64,000 nt of DNA, taken from Aciduricibacillus chroicocephali (GTDB lineage: Bacteria > Bacillota > Bacilli > Bacillales > Amphibacillaceae). The stretch's first letter is position 1. Each line of letters starts with the position of its first letter. Location: NCBI RefSeq assembly GCF_030762805.1, contig NZ_CP129113.1, positions 1 to 64,000 on the forward strand. Direction: 5' to 3'. The notes under the pieces are model-generated. The model ran no database searches and had not been told where the DNA came from. It saw only the letters and a program-made list of their open reading frames with translations. Position numbers and translations under genes: made by a program. Of this stretch, positions 14,975 to 47,272 are shown piece after piece.

Positions 14975-14986
14975 TTATTATTAAAA

Positions 14987-15228
14987 AGGTAATGACAGGA
15001 TTAGTAGCTGTCAGTCCCGTTCCTCAGAGAGCCGGTATTATGGTGAAAACCGGCGAACGGATGCAGTGAATCCACCCTTGAACCGGCATGCCGACGAAAG
15101 CATGCCCGGCCCAGGCACCGTTATAAGCCGAAAAGCCGGAGGAGCGCGTGAAGCAATCCTCAATCAGGGTGGCACCGCGGGAAAGATTCCCGTCCCTATT
15201 TCCATGGGACGGGAGTCTTTCTTTTTGT
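14987..15228 (+). ncRNA. T-box leader (serine) upstream of serS
   Basis: tRNA-sensing transcription antiterminator. The T-box sequence AGGGTGGCACCGCGG is at 15166-15180. Stem I contains AGAGAGCCGG at its base and a specifier segment GTGAATCCACC, in which TCC (15071-15073) reads as the serine specifier codon. The terminator is AAAGATTCCCGTCCC (15182-15196) pairing with GGGACGGGAGTCTTT (15206-15220), followed by CTTTTTG. Uncharged tRNA-Ser(GGA) is expected to stabilise the antiterminator and turn on serS. The exact 5' boundary is estimated. Confidence 0.95.
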
Positions 15229-26944: not shown

Positions 26945-27212
26945 ACCGTGCACCCGTCTTTGTGACGGCGGTCCCAAGCGTTACTCAAGTTCATGGCTCA
27001 GCCCAGGCTTCCCTACGGCACACAAGAATTACTGCTTACTGCTGCTTCCTTCCGGACCTGACAGGGTTCGCAGGTTCCTATTGCGTAGGACCCGAACGTC
27101 AACACCAATTCCTTGAGGCAGGCCTTGCAGCCGCCGCCCCTAGGACGGGAGTTCAGCCTCGCTATAGCGGATTGCGAGTACAGGGTGCCGCTAGCTCCCC
27201 GCTTAGCACGGT
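26945..27212 (-). ncRNA. Signal recognition particle RNA (Bacillus large type)
   Basis: On the minus strand the RNA begins CCGTGCTAAGCGGGGAG and contains the universal SRP domain core CAGGTCCGGAAGGAAGCAGC, then GTGCCGTAGGGAAGCCTGGGC, and ends GGGTGCACGG, which pairs with the CCGTGC start. At about 268 nt it is the large Bacillus form with an Alu domain. A consensus promoter (TTGCAT, 17 bp, TATAAT) lies immediately upstream and a terminator downstream. In B. subtilis the scr gene sits between the same neighbours but runs in the dnaX direction; here it is reversed. Confidence 0.95.
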
Positions 27213-45796: not shown

Positions 45797-45979
45797 ATGG
45801 CCAGACGAGGCGGCATCATGTCAGACCAATTAAAAGAGGAAATTGCTAAGGAACTGGGCTTTTACGACACTGTACAGAAAGAGGGCTGGGGAGGCATCAG
45901 GGCGAGAGACGCTGGAAACATGGTGAAACGAGCCATCGAAAAAGCCGAAGAAGCAATCGCGCAAAAAGGACACAGCTAA
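45797..45979 (+). CDS. sspF: Alpha/beta-type small acid-soluble spore protein SspF
   Basis: DNA-saturating spore protein of 60 residues. The conserved block [20 protein letters not shown], then [20 protein letters not shown], contains the GPR protease site region and the DNA-binding GNMVK segment, a variant of the usual GxMVK motif. ATG at 45797 follows AAAGGGG; the longer frame from 45779 is rejected. The gene keeps the veg-sspF-ispE order. A clear sigma-G promoter could not be placed, partly because a nested hairpin fills the expected region. Confidence 0.93.
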
Positions 45980-45984
45980 ATGGA

Positions 45985-46025
45985 AAAAACAGGAAGCCCG
46001 GCCAGGCTTCCTGTTTTTATTTTTA
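45985..46025 (+). terminator. sspF terminator
   Basis: AAAAACAGGAAGCC (45985-45998) / GGCTTCCTGTTTTT (46005-46018) with extra T residues. Confidence 0.9.
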
Positions 46026-46092
46026 TGCTTAAGTATTTGAAGAATCTTAAACTGCACTTTTTAACGAGTTTTCATCATATAGGTTCAAATTG

Positions 46093-46372
46093 GCAGTCGC
46101 TTTCACACTTGGTTTTATCCAGCAAAGAGCTCCTAGAGACTGGCGTCACAAGTCTTTCCCTTCCAAGGTTCCAAAAGCAGAACCTTTCCAGTGAAATGCT
46201 TGTGAGCTACGTCTCTGAGCAGTCGCTTTTACACTTAGTAATGTCATCCGGTTCAAGCTCCTAGAAGCTGCCGACATAAGCAGGGTTGTTGCAAGTTTGC
46301 AAAGTACACAAACTTTACACAATCCTGCTTATGCGTTCGCTTCTGAGCAGTCGCTTTCACACTTGGTTTTAT
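46093..46372 (+). repeat. Tandem structured repeat (two hairpin units, three linker copies) upstream of ispE
   Basis: A linker GCAGTCGCTTTyACACTTrG occurs at 46093, 46219 and 46347 (periods 126 and 128 bp). Between copies lie two imperfect hairpins starting GCTC-CT-AGA and closing TCT-GAGC. Unit 1 stems: AGAGAC/GTCTCT (46135/46211), TCACAAG/CTTGTGA (46146/46199), AAGGTTC/GAACCTT (46165/46180). Unit 2 stems: AGAAGC/GCTTCT (46263/46339), CATAAGCAGG/CCTGCTTATG (46275/46324), AAGTTTG/CAAACTT (46293/46309). At least five positions differ between units by compensatory pairs, strong evidence that the structure is selected. No coding potential. The strand is assigned from the downstream gene and is not proven. 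Confidence 0.8.
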
Positions 46373-46402
46373 GTTAATATCTACTTAACATTTTTGTTTT
46401 TT
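46372..46402 (+). terminator. Weak terminator-like hairpin before ispE
   Basis: TGTTAA (46372-46377) / TTAACA (46385-46390), followed by a 12-base T-rich run ending just before the ispE ribosome site. The stem is short and AT-only, so function is uncertain. Confidence 0.4.
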
Positions 46403-46420
46403 AAAGGGGGGAGGTTTTGG

Positions 46421-47272
46421 ATGGTTCTTTATGAGAAGGCTCCGGCAAAGGTGAATTTGCTGCTTGATGTGCTTGGTAAGCGGACGGATGGGTATCATGA
46501 AGTGGCAATGGTGATGACAACAGTTGATTTGTTTGACCGGTTGGAGTTTCACGAGCTAAAGGAAGATAGGATTGAAGTATTGCTGGAAAGCCGGTTTGTT
46601 CCAAGCGATGAACGGAATTTGGCTTATAAAGCCGCAGCTGCATTAAAGAAGAAGTATGGAATCAAGGAAGGGATTCAGATTAAAATTGAAAAAAGCATTC
46701 CTGTTTCAGCAGGACTTGGCGGAGGAAGCAGTGATGCAGCTGCAGTTCTAAGAGGTCTGAATCGTCTTTGGTCACTAAATCTATCGAATGATGAGCTTGC
46801 AGATTTGGGAGCCGGAATTGGTTCAGATATTCCTTTCTGTGTACATGGCCGTACTGCTCTGGCGACCGGTCGAGGGGAGAAAATCCAGGAGCTTCCATCG
46901 CCACCGCCATGCTGGGTAGTGCTGGCTAAACTGGATATCGGTGTTTCTTCCCGTACTGTTTTTGAAAACTTGGAATTGGACGGTATTCCACATCCGAATC
47001 TTGAACGAATGCTCAAGGCAATTGAGGATAAAGATTTTGCAGGAGTTTGCGCTAACCTGGGAAATGTGCTGGAGTGCGTGACGTTGGATCTTCATCCGGA
47101 TGTGGCAACTTTGCGTAAAAGGATGGAACAGCTAGGGGCAACAGGTGTCCTGATGAGCGGAAGCGGGCCGACAATTTACGGACTTGTTTCTCAAGAGGCG
47201 AAAGCCCACCGTCTATATAATGGGTTGCGAGGATTTTGTGATGAAGTCCACGTTGTTCGTATGCTCGGTTAA
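46421..47272 (+). CDS. ispE: 4-diphosphocytidyl-2-C-methyl-D-erythritol kinase
   Basis: GHMP-family kinase of the MEP isoprenoid pathway. The 283-residue protein has [12 protein letters not shown] (about 5-16), the GHMP P-loop [21 protein letters not shown] near 90-110, GSDIPFC near 133 and the C-terminal [16 protein letters not shown] at 46421 follows a very strong AGGGGGGAGG; a longer frame starting in the repeat region is rejected. The 400-bp upstream gap holds the tandem structured repeats, so ispE may have a regulated leader. Confidence 0.97.

Follow-up and report, generated by a model that had tools for sequence, protein, structure and literature searches.

REP, BIME and REPIN elements are short, non-coding intergenic palindromes that occur in many chromosomal copies, are often clustered and go together with RAYT (Y1) transposases. 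The attC sites of integrons are characterised by variable stems and unpaired landmarks. In the accessible part of one description, REPs are given a length of 20–40 bp (PMC3733652). The interspersed repeats bcr1–bcr18 of the Bacillus cereus group are 100–400 bp long according to the available passages on them, which restrict the first bcr element to this group and mention plasmid copies of some bcr repeats. A TTTAT target motif is a mark of bcr1. The SLS families Bhal-1 and Bant-1, stem-loop repeats of intergenic DNA, are abundant in Bacillus halodurans and B. anthracis, and the available part of the source gives models of 72–74 bp for them (PMC2267715, Table 3).

The repeat considered here, two units of which lie upstream of ispE in Aciduricibacillus chroicocephali, resembles REP/BIME/REPIN elements in being non-coding, intergenic, palindromic, multi-copy and often clustered. 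However, its units are ~120-bp multi-stem structures arrayed head-to-tail in 44 of 45 arrays, rather than single palindromes of 20–40 bp as in the REP description available, and, unlike in the REP/RAYT system, Y1 is absent from the own genome and shows no correlation with the units in 30 others. With integron cassette arrays, as far as the available accounts of them go, the repeat shares folded DNA hairpins recognised as such and modular, rearrangeable arrays, but no gene lies between its hairpins, whose starts are 120–128 bp apart (113 bp in one case), and it is scattered over the chromosome. It is an interspersed repeat like bcr1–bcr18; however, it spans many genera with one plasmid record, and is set apart from bcr on the strength of the descriptions at hand. 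The contrast of ~120-bp units with the 72–74-bp Bhal-1 and Bant-1 models given in the accessible part of that paper is one of size only, and identity or partial overlap is possible (PMC2267715). Our main reading, to which we give a probability of about 60%, is that the region consists of two members of a dispersed, structured DNA hairpin module of Bacillus-like bacteria, perhaps exapted at ispE.

Anatomy of the region upstream of ispE

The window is the whole stretch of 64,000 nucleotides that was analysed, and the features described in this paragraph all lie on its + strand. The upstream gene encodes an alpha/beta-type small acid-soluble spore protein (45797–45979; Pfam SASP PF00269, E 1.9e-7) and is followed by an inverted repeat forming a terminator-like hairpin (45985–46018), the one site returned by a terminator scan of 45950–46450, against 0.7 expected in shuffles. 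Downstream lies ispE (46421–47272; TIGR00154, E 8.4e-97), the gene for 4-(cytidine 5′-diphospho)-2-C-methyl-D-erythritol kinase. Between them, positions 46093–46372 hold, in this order, a stub, a unit, a spacer and a unit. The stub (46093–46118) is a truncated 3′ arm of a unit, identical over 26 nt to 46347–46372; unit 1 (46118–46237) is matched by model R1 with 98.9 bits (E 1.3e-24), and unit 2 (46247–46365), which is of a different subtype, with 106.9 bits (E 6e-27), both units being members of the 15-unit R1 training set and both recognisable by their fold. The gap between the two R1 matches (46238–46246) is a variable inter-unit spacer. At 46370–46380, beginning 5 nt past the 3′ end of unit 2, the motif TATGTTAATAT is a likely extended −10 box of the ispE promoter, judged from its recurrent position in the ispE loci of relatives; a scan of 45950–46450 by a two-hexamer rule reported no sigma-70-type promoter and likewise left this box unreported.

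The initial annotation had described tandem units with a common linker, and this was borne out by a repeat search, which found the 26-nt linker three times, at 46093, 46219 and 46347, at spacings of 126 and 128 bp, the first copy being exactly the third and the second 81% identical. A second block common to both units, AGCTCCTAGA..., lies at 46128 and 46256, and the stem pairs named at the time (AGAGAC/GTCTCT and others) are found in the sequence. The third linker copy thus stood; the "short hairpin with a T-run" beside it did not, being an A+T palindrome that overlaps the likely −10 box, and it had been missed that the first "linker", 46093–46118, is the truncated 3′ end of a unit.

Each of the two units forms one long interrupted hairpin, and its folding is not equalled by any of 200 dinucleotide shuffles (RNA folding z of −4.3 for unit 1 and −3.2 for unit 2); with DNA parameters the + strand gives z of −3.0 and −5.4, and either strand beats all 200 shuffles. 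The closest relatives of unit 1 are the own-genome units a2, a6 and c2, at 71–74% identity, and that of unit 2 is b1, at ~1,659.8 kb of the own genome, at 74%. Across 15 own-genome units, the length is ~117–121 bp with several stems, and one strand folds as a long hairpin with a variable outer stem outermost and a variable apical stem at the tip. From 5′ to 3′, a unit has a TCC-type start, the outer stem, CTAG, a second stem and an asymmetric internal loop; inward of this loop follow a conserved CATAAG/CTTATG stem, an interrupted stem, the apical stem and the return to the 3′ end, which reads, for example, CAGTCGCCT..CTTTTC or GAGCCGCTTTCACACTTG.

The RNAalifold consensus of these 15 units shows two-sided change in 25 of its 32 pairs, and the CATAAG/CTTATG stem is nearly invariant among 112 non-redundant units. 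In 40 matches from 23 loci (38 distinct rows), 94.4% of the cells pair, compared with 68.4% after shuffling. The covariation score is 0.692; it falls to 0.200 on shuffling and does not exceed 0.144 when the alignment is slid. A count of further pair types (73 vs. 67.9 shuffled) is less telling, as 33 of 500 shuffles reached it. By eye, L181 (~2270–2305) and L208 (~1385–1424) contain short derivatives with the outer stem arms only, the inner hairpin being lost, and the one in L181 resembles an intrinsic terminator. A second repeat type, which shares the TGTCTAGCT-like start but then diverges (GGCAGGCTGCGCGAGTTGCTTC...), is found downstream of units in L105, L107 and L108 of genome G045 and is perhaps a related element.

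A known Rfam RNA was rejected as the identity of the units: in the comparison with Rfam, in which the Bacillaceae-1 family suggested at the outset was included, no family matched over them. The window yielded five matches, none at the units, and in five unit-bearing loci the sole match over the cut-off was an L31 leader outside the units, the others being below it. Elsewhere in the window lie a T-box leader (14983–15200, +; 114.5 bits against a cut-off of 93) and a bacterial large SRP RNA (26946–27211, −), relatives' copies of which served as RNA control.

Dispersal, arrays and genomic context

Searched at the DNA level, the own genome yielded 19 matches with E ≤10, 12 of them with E <1e-6, i.e., 11 elsewhere once the query is discounted. 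Model R1 was built from an alignment (A1) of 15 hand-delimited own-genome units and, run on the 2.73-Mb own genome, found 16 full units at 7 places, with scores that are partly so by construction because 15 of the 16 are training units. These places are at 46 kb (two units), 1,659.5 kb (three), 2,130.7 kb (four), 2,132.5 kb (two), 2,166 kb (two), 2,191.7 kb (two) and 2,277.7 kb (one), and an extra 3′ part of a unit is found at 1,600.3 kb. At E 0.01, R1 matches 29 of 61 genomes, the own included, with per-genome counts that are lower bounds, at most 59 candidates having been scored in each. The counts are 89 (G006) and 66 units in two congeneric genomes that each consist of a single contig. In a sample of 250 genomes of the class, 17 match, 8 of them, counting the own genome, in the own order and 9 in a single other family; these, too, are lower bounds, given strict filters and 14 candidates scored per genome. 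An exact-pattern scan of named genomes returned at least 120 matching stretches, and the genera among the matches listed are Bacillus, Thalassobacillus, Jeotgalibacillus, Mesobacillus, Cytobacillus, Sutcliffiella, Sporosarcina, Planococcus, Halobacillus, Neobacillus, Virgibacillus, Peribacillus, Rossellomorea, Aquibacillus and others. The initial annotation had also considered a mobile or intergenic repeat of the lineage, of which the dispersed intergenic part holds (16 units at 7 places and many in relatives), while mobility is something that we only infer; the many copies at other places, in the own genome and in relatives, speak for a repeat and not for an ispE-only leader.

Plasmid or phage carriage was rejected: blastn with one unit as query gave 1 plasmid and 0 phage records, and the window region as query gave 0 plasmid records. 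The exact pattern had 0 occurrences in viral contigs. Word searches of the literature found no description of the repeat, and six of its sequence pieces were absent from the paper texts searched; in these searches, we met with no name for the repeat.

Arrays were studied in a non-random sample made up of the 120 stretches from named genomes and the best-ranking sites in G006, G052 and G045. Arrays of at least two units make up 45 of the 146 distinct sites, and 44 of the 45 have a uniform, head-to-tail orientation, with unit starts 120–128 bp apart (one case of 113 bp) and spacers of a few bp. In the own genome, none of the 16 units has its nearest relative next to it. The mean identity of the 9 adjacent pairs is 0.636, compared with 0.644 for the 111 other pairs, a value as low being reached in 2050 of 5000 label shuffles, and the order of subtypes differs between arrays, b1, b2 and b3 being closest to a4, a3 and a5, respectively. 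Tandem duplication was rejected as the origin of the own-genome arrays on the ground that 0 of 16 nearest relatives are adjacent. One array in G052 consists of near-identical units and fits tandem duplication. In G062, a congener of G052, the intergenic place orthologous to the site of this array, which has four units in G052, contains a different short tandem palindromic repeat of GCACTGAATAAGGATTCAGTGC type (L162:3400–4060).

The stub that precedes unit 1 in the window (46093–46118) is one case of a polarity seen in many arrays. With a threshold of at least 18 of 24 positions, a match to the unit 3′ end lies upstream of 68 of 220 arrays, ending 5–12 nt before the first unit in 57 of the 68, and at this threshold no upstream stub was detected in the other 152. 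The controls in the same 220 arrays gave 16 for the 3′ end downstream, 4 for the 5′ end upstream, 15 for the 5′ end downstream and 0 for a shuffled 3′ end upstream. An HMM applied to 217 arrays found 31 five-prime-truncated copies upstream vs. 7 three-prime-truncated copies downstream (40 and 17, respectively, when all hits are counted).

Overlap with an ORF of 110 aa or more is seen at only 20 of the 146 sites, compared with 519 of 620 random places. Among 124 classified sites, the flanking genes are co-directional at 75 (47 with the unit and 28 against it), convergent at 38 and divergent at 11, a classification that sets aside 19 overlapping and 3 edge sites and uses ORFs from a simple script. 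With respect to the replication fork, 46 sites in G006 point with it and 24 against (p 0.01; 87 of 89 units), 10 and 2 in G045 (p 0.04; 13 of 47 units) and 4 and 3 in the own genome, with origins placed from gene positions and gene direction confounding the bias. A comparison of G006 with G061 over 400 kb gave no usable colinearity, and the candidate loci compared included no clean empty site that showed a target duplication: the best candidates, with 210 vs. 18 bp (L216/L269) and 171 vs. 7 bp (L208/L206) between matching flanks, have no definable junction.

Recurrence at ispE

An ispE query matches 57 of the 61 genomes, 55 of them strongly, and the 72 loci scanned comprise 50 of these 55 together with those of all 22 named genomes, which were chosen for carrying units. 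At 7 of the 72 loci, ispE is immediately preceded by units that share its orientation: two in the own genome, two in G012, two in G024 (which has at least one further unit on another contig), one in G006, one in G026 (a weak match of 22 bits), and three each in Jeotgalibacillus alimentarius and J. salarius, the weakest of these having 18 and 25 bits, respectively. A unit ~285 bp upstream of ispE in G052 and one farther away and in the other orientation in Bacillus sp. MRMR6 were left uncounted.

The 3′ end of the repeat recurs in relatives as well. A GTCGN motif 19 or 20 nt upstream of a TACAAT-like box is found at 15 of 50 relatives' ispE loci, compared with 57 of 10,000 shuffled sequences; the own family, with 30 loci, accounts for all 15, and the arrangement occurs in 0 of the 20 other relatives and 0 of the 22 named genomes. 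Ten of the 15 have no model match there, and in the ispE loci L306 and L310 more of an element-like 3′ arm is preserved. The position upstream of ispE pointed out in the initial annotation is consequently not a one-off, with units there in several genera and the 3′-end motif in 15 of 50 relatives. By eye, an extended −10-like box (TATGnTACAAT and variants) precedes ispE in many of the 50 relatives, whether the repeat is present or not.

Since the motif recurs at relatives' ispE loci, the 3′ end at this site is either old in the own family or a preferred target. It lies where the −35 region would be and may have a role in the promoter, and the local ispE copy may have been taken over (exapted) for promoter function. 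Repeated occupancy of the ispE site could also reflect local function or inheritance instead of free movement. A general mobile promoter was rejected: TATGnTAnAAT is found at most 16 nt downstream of 5 of 213 arrays and on the other side of 0 of 213, and is not a general rule.

DNA-type pairing and competing explanations

RNA stems accept G-U far better than A-C, and DNA folds have no such preference. Alignments A2, A3 and A4 together contain 228 aligned matches, of which a length filter of 105–130 nt kept 223 (dropping, among others, two antisense partials and one poor 141-nt match), and removal of near-duplicates left 112 units. In the 28 columns of these units that are more than 85% Watson-Crick, the 3083 cells include 2970 Watson-Crick, 20 G-U and 26 A-C pairs; with four weaker columns added, the counts are 29 G-U and 49 A-C. 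Because the >85% Watson-Crick rule itself disfavours G-U, a like-for-like comparison with SRP RNA was used, in which the columns taken are those where Watson-Crick, G-U and A-C together exceed 85%, duplicates being kept. By this rule, G-U and A-C number 33 and 60 of 3653 in A4, 14 and 14 of 1175 in A2 and 6 and 12 of 1739 in A3, whereas SRP RNA from 30 of the 61 genomes has 454 G-U vs. 8 A-C of 2517. A MAFFT alignment of the 15 own-genome units, which is not structure-fitted, has 10 G-U and 8 A-C of 477, and tRNAs of the fetched loci have 56 G-U of 993, a weaker control in that base pairing is a requirement of the finder. These counts are best explained by a fold that is kept at the level of DNA, not RNA, and an element read as RNA equally from both strands could give the same pattern.

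The outer stem carries a further regularity. By a simple text rule, 18 of 119 representatives, the two units of the window among them, fall in a class with CTCC opposite GTCG (a TC:TC mismatch), 84 have a continuous stem and 17 are unclassified. The two pairs beside the mismatch are Watson-Crick, in four combinations, in 13 of the 18 and not fully complementary in 5. As the mismatch itself was the criterion for the class, its recurrence is no more than a hint that a shape is recognised.

These results bear on several explanations. One possibility is that the units act in the transcript as a cis-regulatory leader RNA of ispE, or belong to a family of such leaders, and control isoprenoid synthesis; a tandem cis-regulatory RNA for this pathway was one of the two readings in the initial annotation. 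This possibility accords with the strong conserved fold and covariation, with the same-orientation units at the 7 of 72 ispE loci (one of them the weak 22-bit match) and with the placement of both units counted in G012 at ispE. However, copies adjoin other, different genes, 65 of the 72 loci have no unit directly upstream, and the −10-like box sits downstream of the units, so that an ispE transcript from this start, which is predicted from sequence, would lack them. As the keeper of the fold, the leader did not hold up, with G-U scarce and not above A-C in the units as opposed to 454 to 8 in SRP RNA; an ispE-specific riboregulator is rejected as its cause by this lack of preference and by the scatter of copies, and we regard the leader explanation as a whole as highly improbable. 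Neutral decay combined with mutational palindrome repair, in which the arms of old repeats would be made complementary by template switching during replication and the fold would be unselected, predicts just the Watson-Crick-only covariation that is observed, with G-U no higher than A-C. We nevertheless consider it quite unlikely: such repair should erase internal mismatches, yet TC:TC recurs in 18 of 119 representatives beside differing pairs, though this is no more than suggestive, and the CATAAG/CTTATG stem has hardly changed.

A REP/BIME-like structural repeat, with a function in DNA or transcript such as protein binding, 3′-end protection or transcription insulation, and owing its spread chiefly to recombination between its copies, would fit the mostly intergenic sites (38 convergent vs. 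11 divergent of 124) and the single plasmid record and absence of phage records for the unit query. It is, however, a rather unlikely account, as presence is patchy (29 of 61 genomes; 17 of 250 in the class), the units are larger and more structured than REPs as we know them, and the own genome is without Y1 transposase. The Y1 family (PF01797) was also considered as mobiliser of the hairpin module and rejected, with 0 matches in the own genome and no association in 30 relatives, where 12 of the 15 genomes that carry units have it and so do 13 of the 15 that lack them; the search, which covered this family, turned up no mobilising enzyme.

For the hairpin module, the mixing of subtypes in own-genome arrays implies that the whole unit is what moves or recombines, and the repeat probably represents a small DNA module that moves or is shuffled, rather than a dedicated ispE switch. 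Most likely, a unit would fold as single-stranded DNA or as an extruded cruciform, would be recognised in single-stranded form, and would then be inserted or exchanged beside the 3′ end of an existing copy. Insertion beside a resident 3′ end would explain why orientation and spacing are constant and why many arrays are preceded by an extra 3′-end stub. A more specific and tentative version, about which we are doubtful, is a gene-less cassette system, in which ~120-nt ssDNA hairpin modules of various subtypes would be excised and then inserted singly, in fixed polarity, beside a resident 3′ end by a recombinase, giving shuffled arrays throughout Bacillus-like bacteria; at ispE, the resident 3′ end would now be part of the promoter.

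As many as 89 matches to the model are found in one chromosome, and no Rfam family covers the units of the repeat. If single units move as hairpin modules, a recombination system is still to be found. The strong covariation could make RNA-discovery pipelines call such a repeat a regulatory RNA, and comparing G-U with A-C against a known RNA of the same genomes provides a simple test of a DNA-level vs. an RNA-level fold. The ispE site, finally, may show how the end of a repeat gets recruited into a promoter.
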